A stretch of DNA of 32,900 nt from Thermofilaceae archaeon (GCA_026986905.1 JALSNQ010000015.1:1-32900), one strand, 5' to 3'. Shown: positions 12,615 through 22,745, numbered from the stretch's first letter. Numbers and translations are program-made. The notes: generated by a model from the letters alone, not told the origin.

Positions 12615-13793
12615 TTACAGTCCAGGCGAAACCAGGTAGTAGAGCATAGCCACTGCAGACGCTATGAGGGCTACGCCACCTATCCTCGTAACGACCTTCT
12701 CCCGGGCCAGCAGTCTCCCAACGACTCCACGAACCCTTTCAACACCAGCGAGTATCAGGGTGAGTGTGACACCCAAGCCGACAGCGTAGCCTATTACTAC
12801 TGCAAGGCCCTCGAGCAGCCCACCGCCCCCCGCGCCCAAGGCTATGAGAAACGGGGCGAGGACTAACGGCATATTACACTGGAGAGACAGTATACTGAAT
12901 AGCCCGCAGCTGCCAGCGACACCGAGACCCCTAAACCCGGAGAAGGAGGGAGCCGAGAAACTATATCCAAGCACCTGTGCAGCACCCAGCTGTAAGAGCA
13001 GCGCCGCAGCGAAAACTGTGACCCCTCCCTGCAGCATTGAGACCGCAGAAGCCGCTATGAGGAATATTAATCCGGCGGCCACAACCCCTAGAAGGGCGGC
13101 CGCGAAACAGCCGCATAGGGTGCCTTTTCCCCGCCTCCTCGAACCCTGTACACTGCCAGCGTATGCCAGGAAGAGAGGCAGGGTGCATGGGGAAAGTGTA
13201 GCTAGGAATCCGGTGAGGAGTGAGATGGCTAGGAAAAAGGGCTCCCCGCTTTTAGGCTCCGGCGCCGCTATTTTGCAGGCCGCGCCCACGCATGTCGAGT
13301 TGGAATAACTGCTTACCCCGGTGTCAGGTTCGAGCAGAGACTTTGTGGCCCAATCCAGCATAGCCTGGGTAATGTTCCTACCCCTAAACTCCCCCACGTA
13401 TCTCGCAACAGGCTTCCCATCATAGAAGAGGATGAAGGTGGGCGTCTCCGTGATGCCTAGCCTGCTGTAGAGGGGCGCCGTCCTAGGAGTATAGTATACT
13501 ATGAGAAACCTGATCCCCACCTCTCTCGCTTCAACAAGCCTTCTCCAGTAGGGCTCCATACTCCTACACACAGGGCATGAACTCGAGGAAAACATGACCG
13601 CCACAGCGTCATTACCCGCCACAGCCTCCTCGAAGCCCCTAGCGTCGGTTATAGCGTAGCCTCCAGTGTGGTTTACCGCTGCAGCATAGGCGAGTGAGAC
13701 GAGCAGCGCTATTAGGGCCATATAGCCTACGTGGCGGAGCCTAAGCCTCCTCTTCTCCCTGTACCTAAGGACTAGCCTCATGCTCTCCGGCAT
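12615..13793 (-). CDS. Thioredoxin-CcdA fusion, membrane thiol-disulphide exchanger
   Basis: A 392-residue fusion. Residues 1-21 are basic and about 22-40 form a membrane anchor. A thioredoxin domain follows at about 45-150 with the catalytic CPVC at 73-76 and cis-Pro118 (TETPTF). From about 183 to the end lies a CcdA/DsbD-beta-like membrane domain of about six segments, with LSPCTLP (Cys203) and LQCNMP (Cys306) as the expected relay pair. By family knowledge CcdA passes electrons from cytosolic thioredoxin to an outside partner; here that partner would be the fused domain. The linker adds Cys168 and Cys173. TATA-like CTTAAATAT on the minus strand (about 13822-13832) suggests its own promoter. 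Confidence 0.9.
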   Translation of the reverse strand: MPESMRLVLRYREKRRLRLRHVGYMALIALLVSLAYAAAVNHTGGYAITDARGFEEAVAGNDAVAVMFSSSSCPVCRSMEPYWRRLVEAREVGIRFLIVYYTPRTAPLYSRLGITETPTFILFYDGKPVARYVGEFRGRNITQAMLDWATKSLLEPDTGVSSYSNSTCVGAACKIAAPEPKSGEPFFLAISLLTGFLATLSPCTLPLFLAYAGSVQGSRRRGKGTLCGCFAAALLGVVAAGLIFLIAASAVSMLQGGVTVFAAALLLQLGAAQVLGYSFSAPSFSGFRGLGVAGSCGLFSILSLQCNMPLVLAPFLIALGAGGGGLLEGLAVVIGYAVGLGVTLTLILAGVERVRGVVGRLLAREKVVTRIGGVALIASAVAMLYYLVSPGL

Positions 13794-13932: not shown

Positions 13933-14484
13933 ATGGCGAAAATATACTTCGCTACGGGGAACCCGCATAAGATACGTGAACTAGCAGCCGTGCTAGAGCC
14001 CCTCGGCATAGAGCTGGTACCAGTGAGAGCCGAGAAGCTGGAGATACAGTCCGAGAGCCTCGAGGAAATCGCCAGGTTTGCTGCTCAGAGGCTGCCCGAG
14101 ATGGACGCGCCTGTGGCCGTGGAGGACGCTGGCCTCTTCGTAGAGAAGCTGAGAGGGTTCCCGGGGCCCTATAGCAGCTATGTGTACAAAACCCTAGGGC
14201 TGTGGGGCATACTGAGGCTCCTCGAGGGCGTGGACGAGAGGAGAGCGTACTTCGAGTCTGCGATAGGCGTAAAGACCCCGAGAGGGAGGGTGCTCGTGTT
14301 CAAGGGCAGAGTCCACGGGACGATCACGGCCGAGCCCCGCGGCAAGGGGGGATTCGGCTTCGACCCCATATTTGTCCCGGAAGGAGCAACTAAAACATTT
14401 GCCGAAATGAGGCTCAGCGAAAAAAACATGAATTCTCACAGAGCCCGCGCTGCGCGAGCTCTAGCCGAATGGCTGCTCGGCTAG
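13933..14484 (+). CDS. rdgB: XTP/dITP pyrophosphatase (RdgB/HAM1 family)
   Basis: A cytosolic house-cleaning enzyme that hydrolyses XTP, ITP and dITP to the monophosphate and pyrophosphate, keeping deaminated purines out of nucleic acids. Signatures are FATGNPHKIREL at residues 5-16, VEDAGLFV with metal-binding acids near 61-68, GFPGPYSS near 75, GFGFDPIFVPEG near 139, and SHRARAARAL near the end. The 183 residues match the family. The stop codon is shared with the convergent 950-residue protein gene through CTAG at 14481-14484. Confidence 0.95.
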   Translation: MAKIYFATGNPHKIRELAAVLEPLGIELVPVRAEKLEIQSESLEEIARFAAQRLPEMDAPVAVEDAGLFVEKLRGFPGPYSSYVYKTLGLWGILRLLEGVDERRAYFESAIGVKTPRGRVLVFKGRVHGTITAEPRGKGGFGFDPIFVPEGATKTFAEMRLSEKNMNSHRARAARALAEWLLG

Positions 14485-17333
14485 GGCGGGCCTATTTCCG
14501 GGAGATAATCTTCTAGGAACATCGGCGCGTATATGTATCCATTTTCCCAGTAATCGCTCACATCGGTTAGGTTCAGCCAGCCTTCGCCTCTAGGCCTAAA
14601 GTCCATGAAGACTCCGTTATACACGACTAATGTGCCCCTGTAGACGGTGGAATAGTAGTCAATGGGGTTGTAAAGCGTCTCTATCGATCCCTGCTTGAAG
14701 CCTCCAGGGGCGAACATCGTTACTTCGAACTTTGGCTCTACGCCAGTGTTGTAGAGATTATCTACGCTAGCCCTATCTATTATAGCGGCTCTACCCATGA
14801 CGTCGTTCCAGTAGGCCGCGAAGAAGCTTGGATTGTCTTTCTCTACAACAGGGGGATAAGACGTCCATGCGAAGGGCGTGCCGTCCGTCGAGTTATTAGT
14901 GTCTACGTAGACGAACCAGTCGGCTATGCCTCGGCCCATTGCGCTGTACATCCAGTAGCCCACGTCTGTGTGGCTACGCTTCCAATAGACGTATGTGGTG
15001 ACAGGTATGTACCGTGTGCCGTTGATTATCTCTACGAGCGAAAGCGTATCATAATAGTTTGTGAGTCCACCTGGTACATAGCAGCTAGAATAAACACTGT
15101 TCACCCTAGACGTGTTTAGTAGCGCGAAAATGCGTATGGGAGCTTTGATGTAGCTGTAGCGCATGTAGTGATAGTATATAGTCCAGGTACCGTAGGGCCT
15201 CCACTTGCCCAGGGAGCTCCCACACTCCCCGAAGGCGTGTATGTTGAATGGGCCGAAGGCGTAGTCGGTTATCGGGTCTCTCAAGACGAAGGCCGCTACG
15301 CCGTAGTAGTCGACGTAGCCCCTCGAGGTCGTATGCTCCTGGTCAACGAACTCTACGTCGTAGAGGGGGTGCCAGACGTCCTTATGCGTGGCGTCCTCAA
15401 TATAGGTGATGTTTGTCGGATAGGCTGCGGGCTCGGTGTCCAGGTCGTCGTGCCACCATATGATAACCGTCTGGTTTGATATGTCGAGCCTAGGGAACTT
15501 TACCTGGAAGACTAGCGTGTCGTTGCCGTAGAAGTCTGTCTGGGGATCCGCTAGGCCAAGCGGAACCCTAACGGGCACTCCGTGCCACAGTACTACGGTC
15601 CAGTTCTCATACTGTATGGGCCTCTCCCTGAGCGTTGCAAGCGTACCATCCTCTGTTATGTTTACTCGGAGCTGTTTTATCGGCATAAACGGGAATGGAA
15701 GTATGCGGAACCCCCTTCTCACGGGAAGCCTGTGCCCGAGGAAGTAGAAGGAATAGTTCCACGTCATTTCAAGCGTGTAGACCTCGTCCGGCGTGGCGGC
15801 GGGTCTATTAATAGTATTTACGACGTACCTGTAGGCTACACCATACGTCGCGTATGCCCGATCTAAGTTCACGCTGGTTGGGGAGCCTATATCTAGATCC
15901 TGTATATACGAGACCCTGTCAAGCTCGATTCTCCACTGGCCACTCTTATAGGGATAGGTGCATGGTGACCTTAGATCGACCCAGTTACCCTCAAACACTA
16001 TGTTAAAGTAGCGCCTCCAGGTGACGCCGCTGAAGTATAACTGCATGTAGTCGACCGTGACATTGGTATATGTCACATAGTTTACGGTGAAGCTACTCAC
16101 ATGTACGTCGTCTAGGACTAACTCTCCATTGTACCACGTATCGTAGATTATCTGAGCGGCGCCATAGCGCGAACTGTCGTGATCGACAACAACCCTCACG
16201 TAAGAGTAGCGTGGAATATACACGTCGAGCGTGCTACCATTAGGGAATATTAACGAAGCCACAGTAGTGTACCTAGCATACACGCCCACGTCACCGCTCA
16301 CAACTGTGTGGCCGTTCTGCCCATTAAAGCCCCAGAGAGAGTACTGGTCTTCACAGACTACACTAGGCTTTACTGTAGAGACTGTTTGGGGCGTTCTCTT
16401 GTACACCTTGAACGCTATGTAGCGGTACGTCATGGCTTCCACTATTATACCCCTGTCGTCGCTCACCACTACCATCAAGGGGACGAAGTTTTTCCCAGTG
16501 AGAGGGTCTGCGAGTTCCTCAACGTATGGCTGAAAAGTGACGGTATAGTTCCCGAAGCCCTCGTATGTCACGTCGACGATCTTCGCTTTTTTCCACCTTC
16601 CCGTCCAGTAGCCGCTCTTCTTCTCGGGATAGTAGACCTCTATCCACCCTTTTGTGAGCAGTTCGGAGTAGGGTATGCCGTCGTCCACCCGGACGTTTAT
16701 CCTAATCGTGGTCGTGTTGGCCACTGGATCCTCCTTTACGGGTTCGGGGAAAACGGTCAGGAAGACCCCGACCAGTACGTCGGACTCCCATCCATAGAAG
16801 CCAGCGTTTGTTAGATTAAGCCTCAGCTTAGCATACGCGACAGACGCCGAGCTCGGCCAGTACCAGTAACCCTTTACCAGGTCGCTTACACTCCTTTTCC
16901 TGCCTATGTACTTTGAAATATCGAGTGTGCCTATCTGGTAGCTTATCTGAGGCCCATAGCTAGAATACGCCGTAGAAGTAGCTGCGAGCCAGTACTGGAG
17001 GTACGCGTTAGCAACCATCCTAGCGACGGTGAAGTTGTGCCTCGCGCCGTAGGAGAGGCCTAGGTTGCTGAATCTCGATAGGAATGCGCGGAACCTGGAG
17101 TAGTTGTAGTACGCCCTCGTGGCAGCGGCGAGGACTACCGCCGTGGCCCTGGAGAAGTCTGCGGTTATGGAGCCGACGACCTCCCTGACCACTATGCTCC
17201 TTGTTTTGAGGAAGAAGAGTTGGGCCTCGTAGACGCTTACAACTATGCTCATGACCACTATAGTGATGAGGAGGGCTGTGGCTACGAGTATCTGGCCCCT
17301 CCTACTCCTTCTATATGAACACGCGGGCCTCAT
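14481..17333 (-). CDS. Large pilin-like secreted protein, last gene of the pilin-type operon
   Basis: A 950-residue protein with no recognised family. The N-terminus YRRSRRG-QILVATALL, with a hydrophobic run to about residue 35, looks like a class III (prepilin peptidase) signal cut after Gly13. About 60 more helical residues follow, then a long beta-rich exterior domain very rich in Tyr, Trp and Asn. I count about 18 N-x-S/T glycosylation sites. There are four exterior cysteines (in VVCED, SPCTY, GECGS, SSCYV). The ATG follows the previous stop by 2 bases. By position and size it recalls the large tip pseudopilin GspK of type II secretion, but that is only an analogy. It could equally be a surface adhesin or sheath protein. 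Confidence 0.85.
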   Translation of the reverse strand: MRPACSYRRSRRGQILVATALLITIVVMSIVVSVYEAQLFFLKTRSIVVREVVGSITADFSRATAVVLAAATRAYYNYSRFRAFLSRFSNLGLSYGARHNFTVARMVANAYLQYWLAATSTAYSSYGPQISYQIGTLDISKYIGRKRSVSDLVKGYWYWPSSASVAYAKLRLNLTNAGFYGWESDVLVGVFLTVFPEPVKEDPVANTTTIRINVRVDDGIPYSELLTKGWIEVYYPEKKSGYWTGRWKKAKIVDVTYEGFGNYTVTFQPYVEELADPLTGKNFVPLMVVVSDDRGIIVEAMTYRYIAFKVYKRTPQTVSTVKPSVVCEDQYSLWGFNGQNGHTVVSGDVGVYARYTTVASLIFPNGSTLDVYIPRYSYVRVVVDHDSSRYGAAQIIYDTWYNGELVLDDVHVSSFTVNYVTYTNVTVDYMQLYFSGVTWRRYFNIVFEGNWVDLRSPCTYPYKSGQWRIELDRVSYIQDLDIGSPTSVNLDRAYATYGVAYRYVVNTINRPAATPDEVYTLEMTWNYSFYFLGHRLPVRRGFRILPFPFMPIKQLRVNITEDGTLATLRERPIQYENWTVVLWHGVPVRVPLGLADPQTDFYGNDTLVFQVKFPRLDISNQTVIIWWHDDLDTEPAAYPTNITYIEDATHKDVWHPLYDVEFVDQEHTTSRGYVDYYGVAAFVLRDPITDYAFGPFNIHAFGECGSSLGKWRPYGTWTIYYHYMRYSYIKAPIRIFALLNTSRVNSVYSSCYVPGGLTNYYDTLSLVEIINGTRYIPVTTYVYWKRSHTDVGYWMYSAMGRGIADWFVYVDTNNSTDGTPFAWTSYPPVVEKDNPSFFAAYWNDVMGRAAIIDRASVDNLYNTGVEPKFEVTMFAPGGFKQGSIETLYNPIDYYSTVYRGTLVVYNGVFMDFRPRGEGWLNLTDVSDYWENGYIYAPMFLEDYLPEIGPP

Positions 17334-17335
17334 GG

Positions 17336-17845
17336 CTAACCACCAAAACCTAGTACAAGGATTATATAGAGGACAGAGCCTCTGACAGAGTCAGGCCTCC
17401 CAACTACAACGTATGTGTAGGAGACCGATTCAGCGTCATAGAGAGTCATGTTGTCGAAGTCCTCAACATTCGTTATTCTCCCGTGATCTAACCTATCAAA
17501 ATATATTTCACCCGTAGTTGCGTTTATCTTCATCTCGTATACCTCCATTTTGAATACTATCTCTGGGGGCAGGCTAGTGGAGAGCATGAGCTTCATCTCG
17601 TTTTCCCAGTCGGCCCCGGTGAGGTTCCCCTGGACGATTATGCGCTCATAGACCCTCGCCTTTGCGAAGTCGTTGAGAAGGTTGTATGCCAGCCTGCGCA
17701 GGTCGCTGGTCTCCCTGACGTACTGGCTCTTTATCGGCCTCGTGAAGTTCATGACGAATATTATCGCGACTACCATCATGAAGGTGGCTAAGAGGAGTTC
17801 TATGAGCCTCGCCTGCCCCCTACGTTTACGCGATATAGCGGTCAT
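17336..17845 (-). CDS. Pilin-like membrane protein with class III signal
   Basis: A 169-residue protein. The leader KRRG followed by QARLIELLL and a hydrophobic run to about residue 34 is close to the type IV pilin pattern, including a Glu six residues after the likely cut at Gly10. The rest is a small exterior domain with four N-x-S/T sites. I place the start at the ATG at 17845 because it overlaps the upstream stop as ATGA, has GGAGGG directly before it and leads straight into the signal. The open frame reaches back to 18013, but that part is inside the upstream gene and looks unlike protein. It is the fourth gene of the operon. Confidence 0.85.
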   Translation of the reverse strand: MTAISRKRRGQARLIELLLATFMMVVAIIFVMNFTRPIKSQYVRETSDLRRLAYNLLNDFAKARVYERIIVQGNLTGADWENEMKLMLSTSLPPEIVFKMEVYEMKINATTGEIYFDRLDHGRITNVEDFDNMTLYDAESVSYTYVVVGRPDSVRGSVLYIILVLGFGG

Positions 17846-19035
17846 CCCTCCACCCCCCTCCAAATGGTTAGCCTGACGAGGTAGGGGTAGTTGTAGATCT
17901 GCGCTATGCGCGTGATCACAACGGAGTTCGCCGGCATGCTCGCCCTCGAGCCATACGATATGTCTATACTGGGTATCCTGTTGACCACTATGACTATGAG
18001 GCTCCCATTCCACTCCCCCAGCACGAAGACGTGCGAGGAGAGTCTCTCCAGGTAGCTTATCTTGCCGACCTTGAAGTCTCCAGGCGGCAGGGGGACTGTG
18101 AAGTTGAACGGCGTAGCGTTGTACCAGGTAATACTCGTGGTCGCGAGCAGGCTCCTATACTCTGGGAGAGCCTGCACCACCTCGTCCCTGGTTATTATCG
18201 CGCCGCTCAGGTTTCCCACGTTCACGCTACTATTCACTATCACGTAGTCCCCGATTATGTAGCCCGTGGTGGGCGCCCCGGGAGCCGGGGGCAGCGAGTA
18301 GCCCGCTACAGCGACGAAGCCCTTCCAGTCAACATGGATAATATAGAAGTGGAAGAGGAGCTTCGTGTTGAATGTGCTCAGCGCGGAGCTTATCTCATCA
18401 GTAAAGTTCATCTCCGCGTAGCCGAGCGCGTCGGTCGCGTTACTCTTCGCGAATATCACATAGCTGACGTTCGAGCCTCCCCCGGGCAGCGGGGTGGCCT
18501 TGGCTAGCACGAGAATAGCCGTCACGTTGGCGCCTGGCACGCCGAAGTCATACCAGTTATAGACCTGCACCCTTACGACGGACGGTATACCGGGAGCCGG
18601 GGAGCCTGGAACCGGGTAAAATGCTAGAGGCGTCACGTTGACTGAGAGGAGAGGCTTCATTTCAAGCCTGAATCCGTACTTGCCGCTGAGCCCCAGCATG
18701 CCGGCTATCTCGGTGGAGTTCACTAGAAGCGGGTTAGGGAGCGTCGTGAGGTTTGCTAACCTCATAACCTTGTCGGGATCCACGACGTAGGGGGTTCGCG
18801 TTCCATTCAACGCTAGCCCGAAGTCCGTGAGCGTGGCGTTCGGGTTGGTTCCCCAGTCCGGCGGGTCGCCGGGCGTCAACAGAACCTTGTCCATCACTCG
18901 CTCCGCCACGTTGTATAGCTGCTCCTCTTTGACTGTCTCCAGCCTGCCAGTGACCACGTTGACTACTTCAAACGCTACTATGAGGAAGAGGACTATGAGG
19001 ACTCCTATGGCCAGGTACTCGAGCGCCGCGTGCAT
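17842..19035 (-). CDS. Membrane-anchored, heavily glycosylatable pilin-like protein
   Basis: A 397-residue protein that begins MHAALEYLAIG and runs directly into a hydrophobic segment to about residue 29. It therefore looks like a pilin core without the usual basic leader. A helix (TVKEEQLYNVAERVMDKVLL) and TPGDPPDWG follow, then a long beta-rich exterior part with Pro/Gly-rich stretches. I count 14 N-x-S/T sites and no cysteine. ATG lies 2 bases after the upstream stop, with GGTGGA before it. It is the third gene of the operon. No enzyme motif is visible. Exterior location is inferred from the anchor and the sequons. Confidence 0.85.
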   Translation of the reverse strand: MHAALEYLAIGVLIVLFLIVAFEVVNVVTGRLETVKEEQLYNVAERVMDKVLLTPGDPPDWGTNPNATLTDFGLALNGTRTPYVVDPDKVMRLANLTTLPNPLLVNSTEIAGMLGLSGKYGFRLEMKPLLSVNVTPLAFYPVPGSPAPGIPSVVRVQVYNWYDFGVPGANVTAILVLAKATPLPGGGSNVSYVIFAKSNATDALGYAEMNFTDEISSALSTFNTKLLFHFYIIHVDWKGFVAVAGYSLPPAPGAPTTGYIIGDYVIVNSSVNVGNLSGAIITRDEVVQALPEYRSLLATTSITWYNATPFNFTVPLPPGDFKVGKISYLERLSSHVFVLGEWNGSLIVIVVNRIPSIDISYGSRASMPANSVVITRIAQIYNYPYLVRLTIWRGVEG

Positions 19036-19037
19036 GG

Positions 19038-19580
19038 CTATCCACCGTATACCACTCCAAAGCCCACGTAGACGTAGCCGCCGCTCCTATAGGTCACAAT
19101 GACGGGCTTCCCCGGCATCTCCTCTCCACCCACCACCCGCGGCGGCGTGGGCAGTAGCAGCCTGTTTGTGACGTTTATCCCGTTAACCGTCACAGTGCCG
19201 TTGACCACCCTCACAGGGTTTTTGCCGAAATTCGGCGTCACAACGACCCTAACCTGCTCATAAAGCTGCAGCTTAGCCTTTACAAGTATCTTGTCGCTGG
19301 CAACCTGGTCGATAATTATCTCGTAGGCCTGGTTTGCAATCGTGGGGGGCACGTGTAGGTACATGTAGCTCATACTGCCCCCGCCGAGCGTCTGGACGGA
19401 GACCAGCTCCACTATCTCCTTAGCCGTGCTCTCAGCGACCTCTGCGAGCCTAACGTTCTGTATCTGCATTGATACGAGAAAGCCAAGCCCTATGAAGGCC
19501 GCCACGATGATAAACATGACCCCCATGAGCGCGAGGGTGCCCATCAGGTGGGAGAATATAGGCGACGCCATGTCTCTCAC
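19038..19580 (-). CDS. Membrane-anchored small pilin-like protein
   Basis: A 180-residue protein with a hydrophobic N-terminal segment at about residues 12-38 and a helix after it (RLAEVAESTAKEIVELVS). An exterior beta-rich domain with two N-x-S/T sites follows. No basic-Gly leader is visible, so it may be a plain anchor like FlaF/FlaG-type proteins or a leaderless pseudopilin. The listed GTG overlaps the upstream TGA by 4 bases (GTGA). An ATG three codons later at 19571 is possible. It is the second gene of the operon. The VGGGSMSYMYLHVPP-type core is not one I can place. Confidence 0.82.
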   Translation of the reverse strand: MRDMASPIFSHLMGTLALMGVMFIIVAAFIGLGFLVSMQIQNVRLAEVAESTAKEIVELVSVQTLGGGSMSYMYLHVPPTIANQAYEIIIDQVASDKILVKAKLQLYEQVRVVVTPNFGKNPVRVVNGTVTVNGINVTNRLLLPTPPRVVGGEEMPGKPVIVTYRSGGYVYVGFGVVYGG

Positions 19581-20380
19581 CCGCGCGTGCTAACCTCGAC
19601 GTCGGCTATCCTCACAACAACGATCGTCCCCTGGGCCGTGGGGTCTCCTGCGAAGACCTTGCTCTCGGGATGACCGTTCAAGACCGCTGTGACATTTATC
19701 GCGGTACCGCTGAACTTGTACTCCATGGTTTTTATGCCGCGGTTCCTGAAGATCACCGGTATATGCCCGGCGCCCCCCACGGGGCCTATCGTGAGGTTGA
19801 TATAGGATATAGCGAAGTAATTGTACTTCTTCGTCACCCCTCCCTCTAAGAGGTCGAAGACACCCATATAATTGACCCTCACCCTGGTGGGCATGAGGTA
19901 CACCTTAGCCCTACCGCTGAAGTTCTCATAGACGACAACCATGGGCTCCCCGGGGCCTACGATGAGCCTCTTAAGCTCTAGACCGGGGTTTATCGTTATT
20001 TCTGGCCTGAGAACCCTGAACACAGTGGTCACCAGGGAGCCTCCCACAGCCACTATGGAGGAGGTCTCCCGGTCGTAGATAACCCTCGTGCCGTTAACAT
20101 ACACCTCTAGGGGGCCGTAGGCGTTCTCAACAAAGTTTATTCCCGTCGATGAGAGGCTGAACCTAATATACCTAGACCCCCCCGCGCCCAGAGCTACCTG
20201 CTCGAGCGCGGTAGCCGTGTATATGAACATGTCCTTCGTAGACTCGTATTCCATCTGCTGCCTGTTCGCGTCTATAAGCGACGTGGCGTAGAAGATGGCC
20301 ACACCGATTAACGTGAGCAGTATACCCGCTAAAATAACCGTCGAGACTACCTGGGAAACACCTCTACGTCTACGAGGCAT
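19577..20380 (-). CDS. Type IV pilin-like protein, first gene of the operon
   Basis: A 267-residue protein with the clearest archaeal pilin signal in the window. MPRRRRG is followed by VSQVVSTVILAGILL, resembling the archaeal type IV pilin N-terminal domain, with a predicted cut after Gly7 by a PibD-type peptidase. The exterior domain is beta-rich, with four N-x-S/T sites and no cysteine. The open frame extends to a GTG at 20425. However, the TATA-like element at 20431-20441 places transcription start near 20408, downstream of that GTG, so I take the ATG at 20380. It is probably the founding or major subunit of whatever the operon builds. Confidence 0.87.
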   Translation of the reverse strand: MPRRRRGVSQVVSTVILAGILLTLIGVAIFYATSLIDANRQQMEYESTKDMFIYTATALEQVALGAGGSRYIRFSLSSTGINFVENAYGPLEVYVNGTRVIYDRETSSIVAVGGSLVTTVFRVLRPEITINPGLELKRLIVGPGEPMVVVYENFSGRAKVYLMPTRVRVNYMGVFDLLEGGVTKKYNYFAISYINLTIGPVGGAGHIPVIFRNRGIKTMEYKFSGTAINVTAVLNGHPESKVFAGDPTAQGTIVVVRIADVEVSTRG

Positions 20381-20430
20381 AACAAGGCACCGCGTAACAG
20401 CTACCAAACTATACCGGCATACCACTATGG

Positions 20431-20441
20431 AATATATATCA
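20431..20441 (-). promoter_or_regulatory. TATA box of the pilin-like operon
   Basis: The minus strand reads TGATATATATT here, about 50-60 bases before the ATG at 20380. Transcription would start near 20408 and give a leader of about 25 bases. No other TATA-like element is seen on the minus strand between the five genes, so one transcript is likely. Confidence 0.5.
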
Positions 20442-20558: not shown

Positions 20559-21839
20559 ATGGAGAAGATGACGGAAACACAGCGTCTCGAGGTGCGGGCC
20601 ACCGTTTTAACGCTCATACTCGTGGTCTCCCTCTCAATCCTCCTTGCCCAAACACGTGCCTCCCCGGCAGCAAAGGGCCCCCTGGTGATAGCCTACGTCA
20701 AGGGTACAGTCGACGAAGGCCTAGTCTACACCATTCAGCGCGCCGCTTCGGCAGCCAAGGGCGGCACGCTTATACTAGTAGTCGACAGCTACGGTGGATA
20801 TCTACGCTCGATGGATAGGATAGTGGAGACCGTCTCCTCCTGCCCCTGCCGCACGGTCGCATGGATCCCTCCCGGCTCCAAAGCGGTGTCCGCGGCCGCG
20901 GTTGTCGCGCTTAGCGCAGAGAAACTCTACGTGGGCAAGGGGGCGGTGCTGGGCGCGTGCCACTCCTGGCCGGCCGACGAGAAAGTATTATCATACATGG
21001 CTAAGAGGGTCGAAAGCCTTCTAGTAAAGAGGGGCGTGAGGGATGCGAAACGCCTAGCCATAGGAATGGTGTACAACAACACAACACTAGACTATGAGGA
21101 GATGGTGAAACGGGGAGTGGCTGACGGGGAAGCCGATACGCTAGACGCGCTCCTCGCAGAATTGGGGCTCAAGGGGTCTCACGCGGAGATATATAGGAGA
21201 GGGGTTGTGAGCGACCTTATAAGTTTTCTCTTCGACCCGGGCACCGCGCTCATGTTCATAGTTCTAGGCGTCCTTCTCGTCGTGCTTGGCGTAAAGACAG
21301 GAGGACACCACGGGTTCCTCCTAACAGGCCTTGCGCTGTTGGCGCTCTCGTTCTACTCCCTGGACATTATAGGTGGAAGCCTACTCACATTCACCCTGCT
21401 CGCGTTGGGCCTCACAGCGCTCATACTGGAGCTGAAAAAGCCGGGCCTGCAGGTCTTCGGCGCGCTGGGCTTAACGCTGATATTTCTAGCGGTTATATTC
21501 GAATACTATAGGCGGCCCTACGTCGAGTTCGGCTTGAACCTTCTCCCACTGGTCGTCAGCTTCATAGTGATAGCCGGCTTCCTAGTCTTCGTTATAGTGA
21601 AGGCGTCTACGGCGTTGAAGATGCACGTGGAGAGCCTGGAGGAAAAGCTCGTCGGTAAGAGGGGCAGGGCGAAGACTAGGATATCCCCTGGAAAGCCCGG
21701 CGTAGTCAACGTGGAGAGCGAGGACTGGAGCGCCGTAAGCGATGAGGAGATAGAGGCCGGAGAAGAGGTGGAGGTTGTAGGTGTCGAGGGTCTCACGCTG
21801 AGAGTGAAGCGTGCCGGGAATAAGCAACCTTTATCGTAA
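20559..21839 (+). CDS. NfeD-type membrane serine protease
   Basis: A ClpP-class membrane protease of the NfeD 1b family, as in Pyrococcus PH1510, which cuts the C-terminus of its partner stomatin. The signal or anchor is at residues 14-31. The ClpP-like exterior domain spans about 40-205, with VVDSYGG, the likely nucleophile Ser111 (KAVSAAA) and a likely general-base Lys149 (YMAKR). Five or six membrane segments lie at about 225-365. A C-terminal OB-fold NfeD domain ends with GEEVEVVGVEGLTLRV at about 400-415. Length of 426 residues is normal. ATG at 20568, three codons in, follows GGAG and is an alternative start. The stomatin gene follows after 33 bases. Confidence 0.92.
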   Translation: MEKMTETQRLEVRATVLTLILVVSLSILLAQTRASPAAKGPLVIAYVKGTVDEGLVYTIQRAASAAKGGTLILVVDSYGGYLRSMDRIVETVSSCPCRTVAWIPPGSKAVSAAAVVALSAEKLYVGKGAVLGACHSWPADEKVLSYMAKRVESLLVKRGVRDAKRLAIGMVYNNTTLDYEEMVKRGVADGEADTLDALLAELGLKGSHAEIYRRGVVSDLISFLFDPGTALMFIVLGVLLVVLGVKTGGHHGFLLTGLALLALSFYSLDIIGGSLLTFTLLALGLTALILELKKPGLQVFGALGLTLIFLAVIFEYYRRPYVEFGLNLLPLVVSFIVIAGFLVFVIVKASTALKMHVESLEEKLVGKRGRAKTRISPGKPGVVNVESEDWSAVSDEEIEAGEEVEVVGVEGLTLRVKRAGNKQPLS

Positions 21840-21872
21840 ATATACGCGTTAACCTCATGCTGGGTGCAGCAG

Positions 21873-22745
21873 ATGTTCGACATAATAACTCTAATCGTAG
21901 TCCTCCTGATACTGGGCTACATCATATACAGTAGCATAAAGATCGTCCCCGAGTACCAGCGCCTAGTGGTCTTCAGGCTAGGCAGGGCTATCAAGGTAGC
22001 CGGGCCCGGGCTAGTATTCCTTATACCATTCATAGACAAAGGCGTGGTAGTCGACCTGAGGGAGCAGTACATAGAGGTTGAGCGGCAGACGTGTATAACA
22101 AAGGACAACGCCCCAGTCGACATAGACTTCCTGATATACTTCAAGGTCATCGACCCCTTCAAAAGCGTACTCGAGGTGAGGGACTTTAGGGGCGCCGCAA
22201 TAGGCCTCGCAACGACCACCCTCAGGGCAGTCGTGGGGGACATAGACCTCGACCACGTACTCGCACAGCGCGAGTACATAAACGAGGTGCTCAGGGAGAA
22301 ACTAGACGAAGTAACCGCTAGATGGGGCGTCAAGGTTACGGCGGTCGAGATAAGGGAGATTCTGCCGCCTAGAGAGGTCCAGGAGGCCATGATCAAGCAG
22401 ATGAGCGCTGAGAGGACGCGGCGCGCAATGGTCACGGAGGCCGAGGGCAAGAAGGAGGCCGCCATCAAGGTAGCGGAGGGTGAGAAGCAGGCGACCATCC
22501 TGCGGGCGGAGGGCGAGAAACAGGCAGCGATACTCAGGGCTGAGGGGCTCGCGCTGGCGCTCGGCAAGATAGACGAGGCTGCATCCAAGATTGACAGCAA
22601 GACCATGATGCTGCAGTACTTCGACACGCTCCAGAAGGTCGGCAGCTCCCAGTCGACCAAGCTCGTGCTGCCAATGGAGGTCTTCAGGCTCCTAGAGCCC
22701 ATAAAGGAGCACCTTAAAGCACTCGAGGCTAAAAAACAGGCCTAA
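21873..22745 (+). CDS. Stomatin/prohibitin-family (SPFH) protein
   Basis: A membrane-anchored scaffold of 290 residues. The N-terminal hydrophobic hairpin or anchor is at about 2-22. The SPFH domain is at about 25-190, with EYQRLVVFRLGR and GPGLVFLIPFID. A coiled coil at about 185-240 carries repeats of AEGEKQA and AEGKKEA, and a C-terminal region is rich in charged residues. SPFH proteins form large membrane assemblies and are the substrate or partner of NfeD proteases, which matches the gene order here. I choose the ATG at 21873 because GGGTG lies six bases before it; the GTG at 21864 is part of that site. Confidence 0.94.
   Translation: MFDIITLIVVLLILGYIIYSSIKIVPEYQRLVVFRLGRAIKVAGPGLVFLIPFIDKGVVVDLREQYIEVERQTCITKDNAPVDIDFLIYFKVIDPFKSVLEVRDFRGAAIGLATTTLRAVVGDIDLDHVLAQREYINEVLREKLDEVTARWGVKVTAVEIREILPPREVQEAMIKQMSAERTRRAMVTEAEGKKEAAIKVAEGEKQATILRAEGEKQAAILRAEGLALALGKIDEAASKIDSKTMMLQYFDTLQKVGSSQSTKLVLPMEVFRLLEPIKEHLKALEAKKQA

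Follow-up and report, generated by a model that had tools for sequence, protein, structure and literature searches.

In their 2016 census of type IV pili in archaea, Makarova et al. regarded it as a major enigma that these pili are so abundant and diverse in hyperthermophiles, and the pilin loci of Thermofilum and of Vulcanisaeta/Caldivirga were not firmly assigned a machine (PMC4858521). Here we describe an operon of five pilin-like genes, P1 to P5, from a Thermofilaceae archaeon (GCA_026986905.1 JALSNQ010000015.1:1-32900); the complete stretch of 32,900 nucleotides is referred to as the window. The operon resembles the Thermofilum, Vulcanisaeta/Caldivirga and subclade 4E loci of the census in the taxa concerned, in the presence of multiple predicted minor pilins and in the lack of an ATPase within the locus (PMC4858521), and homologous predicted pilins are found in genomes that we take to be of the Vulcanisaeta, Caldivirga and Pyrobaculum type. 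The pilin loci have therefore been partly known since 2016 (PMC4858521). What is new here is the link to a machine, which was tentative for the Thermofilum loci of this type in the census and is now derived from operon structure in sister families (PMC4858521), the swap of a large ectodomain between two subunits, and a subunit, P3, that starts at the residue following leader cleavage in its relatives.

Among described systems, the Aap, Ups and bindosome pili of the Sulfolobales possess an ATPase and a platform that are distant relatives of those reported below (BasE, UpsF, BasF), and PilA/UpsA-like pilins lie near some of our loci. In contrast to these pili, for which the census gives mostly three components (PMC4858521), five extra subunits are present, two of them leaderless and one very large. 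Leaderless pilin-like proteins encoded together with a type IV filament machine are represented by ArlF and ArlG, archaellin-like proteins without signal peptide that form the archaellum stator (PMC8978795). However, P2 has neither a sequence match nor a significant structural match to them, profiles of P2 and P3 gave no archaellin-type match among PDB sequences, and no archaellum genes were seen at the loci examined. Streptococcus sanguinis PilB and PilC and the bacterial H-I-J-K tip share with our operon a small pilin set, a bulky domain on a pilin module and a proposed location at the tip, where modular minor pilins have been placed by others (PMC8179133; review PMC10191384). They differ in that homology is not detectable and that here the large module resides on either of two subunits, depending on the genome.

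A conserved set of pilin-like genes

We estimate at roughly three in four the probability that the operon encodes a dedicated pilin set, most likely of minor pilins, belonging to one archaeal type IV pilus in Thermofilum-like archaea and their relatives. The components that characterize a type IV pilus are class III leaders, found on P1, P4 and P5 in essentially all relatives, a helix with a beta head, found in the models of P2 and P5, proteins with T2SSE and T2SSF domains, and an A24 prepilin peptidase. The genes occupy positions 14481-20380, as read from the sequence (Table 1), and are co-directional on the minus strand and tightly spaced, just as an initial annotation of the window had described them. 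Each product contains exactly one strongly hydrophobic segment, which is N-terminal (Kyte-Doolittle maximum 2.66-2.86 in residues 1-50 versus at most 1.47 elsewhere). The basic-Gly leaders of P1, P4 and P5 (RRRRG-VSQVV, KRRG-QARLIE and RRG-QILVA) read exactly as that annotation gave them, and P2 and P3 do begin almost directly with the hydrophobic segment. The successive junctions amount to +5, +2, -4 and +2 bases. The last three had been given correctly, but the value of -4 proposed for P1-P2 would apply only if P2 began at GTG 19580, and relatives keep ATG 19571. For P1 the start is ATG 20380; an alternative GTG at 20425 sits almost on the TATA-like element AATATATATC.

The order P1-P2-P3-P4-P5 on a single strand is found in 19 genomes of the class when 20-kb neighbourhoods are compared, namely in the window genome and in G003, G005, G006, G008, G009, G010, G012, G013, G014, G015, G017, G018, G019, G023, G025, G027, G030 and G038 (G numbers denote genomes, L numbers loci). 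In this count, the contig ends within P5 in G017 and G025, P5 is split by stops in G015, and P2 of G038 and P5 of G030 were placed mainly by position. P3-P5 are also seen in a further genome, G011, whose contig then stops. The presence or absence of a leader is likewise conserved across relatives for each of the five genes. Chance is excluded because order, strand and leader state are all kept, and the gene-order conservation that had been suggested as a check is thus established. Homologues of P4 and P5 occur in 19 and 20 of 41 related genomes, respectively, while the P3 profile finds relatives in 41 of the 81 genomes of the class. HHalign connects P1, P3 and P4 with pilin clusters of the Vulcanisaeta/Caldivirga and Pyrobaculum types, at 87% for P1, 97% for P4, and for P3 99% with the Vulcanisaeta/Caldivirga-type and 96% with the Pyrobaculum-type homologues. 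The homologue-bearing genomes are presumably those of Caldivirga maquilingensis, Vulcanisaeta distributa, V. moutnovskia and Pyrobaculum aerophilum, and we take G008 to be Thermofilum pendens. An XTP-pyrophosphatase-like gene follows P5 in the window and in Thermofilum-like genomes alike, and the window operon is therefore positionally orthologous to the Thermofilum-like loci.

Some genomes show deviating arrangements. Two five-gene sets each are present in G005 (L082 and L083, diverged) and in G018 (L093 and L146). The G015 P5 lies in two reading frames with internal stops, which points to a decayed gene or an assembly error, and G022 contains a P5 homologue with no recognisable P1-P4 around it.

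Searches of Pfam and NCBIfam with P1-P5 gave no match above cut-off, P1 showing a weak match to DUF7289 below it. PHROGs returned zero matches and hence no sign of a viral origin, and a search of PDB sequences with the P5 sequence and P1-P4 profiles yielded chance-level matches only. As curated pilin models miss the window's own proteins and N-terminal hydrophobic helices are generic, P1-P5 might be membrane-anchored surface proteins that resemble pilins in look only. We regard this as very improbable in view of the conserved leaders, the pilin-type models, the co-operonic ATPase and platform and the class-wide co-occurrence described next.

The assembly machinery

The initial annotation characterized the operon as being without an assembly machine. 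This is correct for the window locus and incorrect for the system, since ATPase and platform genes head the same operon in sister families. In four relatives from these families (L076-L079), ATPase, platform and P1-P2-P3-P4-P5 constitute one seven-gene run on one strand, and L077, like L076, L078 and L079, shows gaps or overlaps of only a few bases. The ATPase/platform pair is adjacent but partly divergent in L080, L081 and L082; in L146 (G018) a truncated ATPase gene and the platform stand ahead of P1-P4, the platform lies directly before P1 in L093, and the pair is ~7 kb away in L084. The ATPase matches T2SSE with 133 bits (Pfam) and the platform T2SSF with 71.7 bits in two stretches, as a two-domain T2SSF/TadC protein. 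The nearest named families are ArlI/BasE for the former and UpsF/BasF/ArlJ for the latter. The ATPase of L078 has a C-terminal winged helix-turn-helix extension (residues ~607-680, HTH_24 over cut-off), an uncommon feature in a secretion ATPase.

In closed genomes of the window's own family (G006, G008, G010, G012), the pair resides ~280-470 kb from the pilin genes, and the same-genus genome G001 holds it on contig C92. Pilin genes ~500 kb away from their machine have been reported for Cuniculiplasma (PMC12448462). Linked and unlinked ATPases fall into a single clade with a support of 1.0 (FastTree), the sister of which is formed by ATPases of Vulcanisaeta- and Pyrobaculum-like genomes. In a comparison of 40 relatives, 18 combine the five genes with a strong ortholog of the platform and two (G001 and G024) have the platform only, whereas the five genes never occur alone and both are missing from the other 20 (Fisher p = 3.4e-9, a figure that is inflated by shared ancestry). 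An A24 prepilin peptidase over the family cut-off is encoded in the window's own genome. The suggestion of the initial annotation that pilin-like proteins form one assembly, with ATPase and platform encoded elsewhere, is thus supported: an ATPase, a TadC-type platform and an A24 peptidase are found in relatives, and the peptidase also in the genome itself. A new kind of filament system that lacks a machine, on the other hand, is not supported, given the sister-family operons and the Thermofilum loci already listed in the 2016 census (PMC4858521).

Subunits without a leader

Unusually for pilus subunits, P2 and P3 carry no leader in any relative of the order, and in-frame stops are found a short distance upstream. 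No start codon that would allow a leader extension was found upstream of either gene in these relatives; for the window's own P2, the sole candidate is a GTG that precedes the start by three codons. The P3 homologues at loci of the Vulcanisaeta, Caldivirga and Pyrobaculum types do bear a leader (RG/QSSAVE, KG/QTSAIE and RG/LESFD), the start methionine of P3 aligns exactly with position +1 of their mature chains, and the acidic residue at +6 is kept (MHAALE in P3 versus QSSAIE; P4 has the same Glu in QARLIE). From this combination of leader-bearing homologues, Met at +1 and acidic +6, P3 is best read as the descendant of a processed pilin that has lost its leader. P2 and P3 could tentatively be viewed as 'born-mature' pilins: P3 would be translated from the site at which the peptidase otherwise trims and would escape both trimming and quality control by the peptidase, and the two proteins might either be inserted first and seed the pilus or serve as a permanent envelope anchor.

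The main alternative, which we regard as rather doubtful, is that P2 and P3 remain membrane-bound at the base of the pilus as a collar or anchor in the manner of ArlF/ArlG, with only P1, P4 and P5 being processed and assembled. The lack of leaders in every relative of the order would fit, the archaellin-like ArlF and ArlG, which have no signal peptide either, set a precedent (PMC8978795), and the 14 N-glycosylation sequons of P3 suggest an exposed envelope protein. However, the leaders kept by the P3 homologues from Vulcanisaeta-, Caldivirga- and Pyrobaculum-type genomes point to an origin of P3 from a processed pilin, the large ectodomain that P2 carries in two genomes would be odd for a basal collar, and the P2 model is without a structural match to solved ArlF/ArlG.

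Predicted structures and the place of the large ectodomain

AF2 models were made for P2 and P5. That of P2 (pLDDT 88.2) consists of a 59-residue helix (residues 4-62) followed by a beta domain and thus has the lollipop shape of a pilin. In the P5 model (pLDDT 83.7, pTM 0.76), an 82-residue helix (residues 10-91) is followed by another helix and by multiple beta domains. The pilin-type N-terminal helix, which had been named as a check on the initial proposal, is accordingly present in both. Part of the P5 model resembles the supersandwich folds of sugar enzymes (GH38, LacZ, 3k25) as well as YidC, with target-normalised TM-scores of at most 0.50 (Foldseek), and the likeness to sugar-enzyme beta domains may be taken as a weak hint. 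This likeness and the arrangement of small pilin-like genes with a large one last, which recalls GspH-I-J-K, could be reconciled with a secretion-like machine that is analogous to type II systems and builds a short pseudopilus, P5 acting as piston-tip or displayed enzyme. We consider this improbable, as those TM-scores are low, no secretin-type or other T2SS gene was recognised at the loci, archaeal cells lack a bacterial-type outer membrane that would have to be crossed, and the closest named ATPase and platform families belong to the archaellum, the bindosome and the Ups pilus. The comparison with the GspH-I-J-K tip drawn in the initial annotation is reduced to an analogy: none of P1-P5 matches these minor pseudopilin families above cut-off in Pfam/NCBIfam, and no sequence relation was found.

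By alignment, P5 is made up of a pilin-like core (residues 1-~318), an insert (~320-505) found only in the window and in G023, and an ectodomain (~505-950). In G009 and G014, P5 is reduced to the core (~275 aa), and P2 reaches 760 aa through a grafted ectodomain of ~590 aa (L090/L091). A transfer of the same ectodomain from P5 to P2 in these two genomes was considered and rejected, because the two domains are unrelated by phmmer and HHalign. Judged from the sequences, it is the place of the large ectodomain that moved between P5 and P2, not the domain. Since each operon has one large ectodomain, borne by P2 or else by P5, both subunits would be located in the same exposed part of one structure. 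The ectodomain of P5, or of P2 in G009 and G014, probably serves adhesion.

Candidate shaft pilins and points against the proposed pilus

Nearly all relatives possess PilA/UpsA-like pilin genes. In L081, L082 and L084 these are close to the ATPase, and the TIGR02537 N-terminal domain scores over cut-off in L081 and L084. Several observations weigh against our assignment of P1-P5 to a pilus built around such a shaft. No PilA-like match was obtained in the window genome (G000, 57% complete) or in the same-genus genome G001 (76%). Neither ATPase nor platform was found in the window's own genome, which we ascribe to the unlinked position of the pair in this family and to the incompleteness of the genome. 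G030, counted above as having neither, gave a diverged five-gene set in a later, more sensitive search, and its platform match is weak (4e-23). The P2 model had no match with E < 0.1 among PDB structures, and no pilin appeared among the matches listed for P5. The leaderless P2 and P3 might stay out of the filament altogether, and we infer the tip position and adhesive role of the set, including those of P5.

The missing PilA-like match in both genomes, like the ISPVIATVIL pilin signature on P1 of relatives, would also agree with a heteropolymeric filament formed by P1-P5 alone, without a separate major pilin. This appears hardly probable to us: both genomes are incomplete, P1, P3 and P5 are far larger than typical major pilins, and the PilA/UpsA-like genes that nearly all relatives possess are near the locus in several of them.

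Neighbouring genes

A protein of ~515 aa with a signal peptide and a C-terminal membrane anchor is encoded directly upstream of P1 in L081, L084 and L086 and is absent from the window. It is a candidate S-layer or anchor component; an S-layer-like protein of such layout has been noted for some pilus loci in the 2016 census (PMC4858521). Winged-helix proteins with C-terminal membrane segments are encoded next to the pilus locus in L077, L080 and L082. The L077 gene resembles that of ArnR, an activator of the archaellum, with a score below cut-off (57 bits), and the protein is a candidate regulator. The window itself contains an NfeD-like membrane protease and stomatin/SPFH-like pair divergent from the pilin operon, and a gene for a protein of 392 aa whose sequence suggests a thioredoxin-like domain (CPVC) with a CcdA/DsbD-like membrane part after it.

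Table 1. Positions of the pilin operon, its predicted machinery and neighbouring features
Feature	Sequence	Position	Strand	Remarks
P1	window	19577..20380	-	class III prepilin RRRRG/VSQVV, 267 aa, beta-rich head; relatives RRG/ISPVIATVILT
P2	window	19038..19571	-	pilin-like without leader, 177 aa
P3	window	17842..19035	-	pilin-like without leader, 397 aa; invariant M1, E6, Y7
P4	window	17336..17845	-	class III prepilin KRRG/QARLIE, 169 aa; invariant Glu at +6 of predicted mature chain
P5	window	14481..17333	-	large modular class III prepilin RRG/QILVA, 950 aa
TATA-like element AATATATATC	window	20431..20440	-	~55 bases upstream of P1 ATG; read from sequence, putative promoter
Thioredoxin-like/CcdA-like gene	window	12615-13793
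NfeD-like and stomatin-like pair	window	20559-22745
A24 prepilin peptidase	G000:C3	15314-15580
ATPase	L077	11339-13120
Platform	L077	9546-11342		followed by P1-P5
ATPase with winged-helix extension	L078	5959-8016
ATPase/platform pair	G006	1.296-1.303 Mb		pilins 1.007-1.012 Mb
ATPase/platform pair	G010	1.058-1.062 Mb		pilins 1.358-1.364 Mb
ATPase/platform pair	G012	0.841-0.845 Mb		pilins 0.563-0.569 Mb
ATPase/platform pair	G008	0.397-0.405 Mb		pilins 0.864-0.869 Mb
~515-aa protein	L081	14406-15980
~515-aa protein	L084	8737-10272
~515-aa protein	L086	10271-11827
Winged-helix protein	L077	2421-3179
Winged-helix protein	L080	2493-3317
Winged-helix protein	L082	1174-1935
P5 of G015	L089	5387-7854
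P5 homologue of G022	L092	3255-5495

Proposed assembly and implications

According to the explanation that we favor, a PibD-type peptidase would trim P1, P4 and P5, while P3 would not need trimming because its start codon already coincides with the point of cleavage in its relatives. The ATPase, whose gene lies at another locus in the window's family, would power the TadC-type platform, which would put P1-P5 together as the initial segment of the pilus, and PilA/UpsA-like pilins from other loci would then form the shaft. The large beta-rich ectodomain of P5 would be exposed at the tip or close to it and probably act as an adhesin, and P2 and P5 may share the same exposed place because it is P2 that bears the large ectodomain in two relatives.

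The seven-gene operons of the sister families supply ATPase, platform and five subunits and with them a defined set to express, image and delete. As P3 is leaderless and has relatives with a leader, it offers a test of whether every pilin needs processing by the peptidase, and from the swap of the ectodomain one would predict that P2 and P5 are displayed together.

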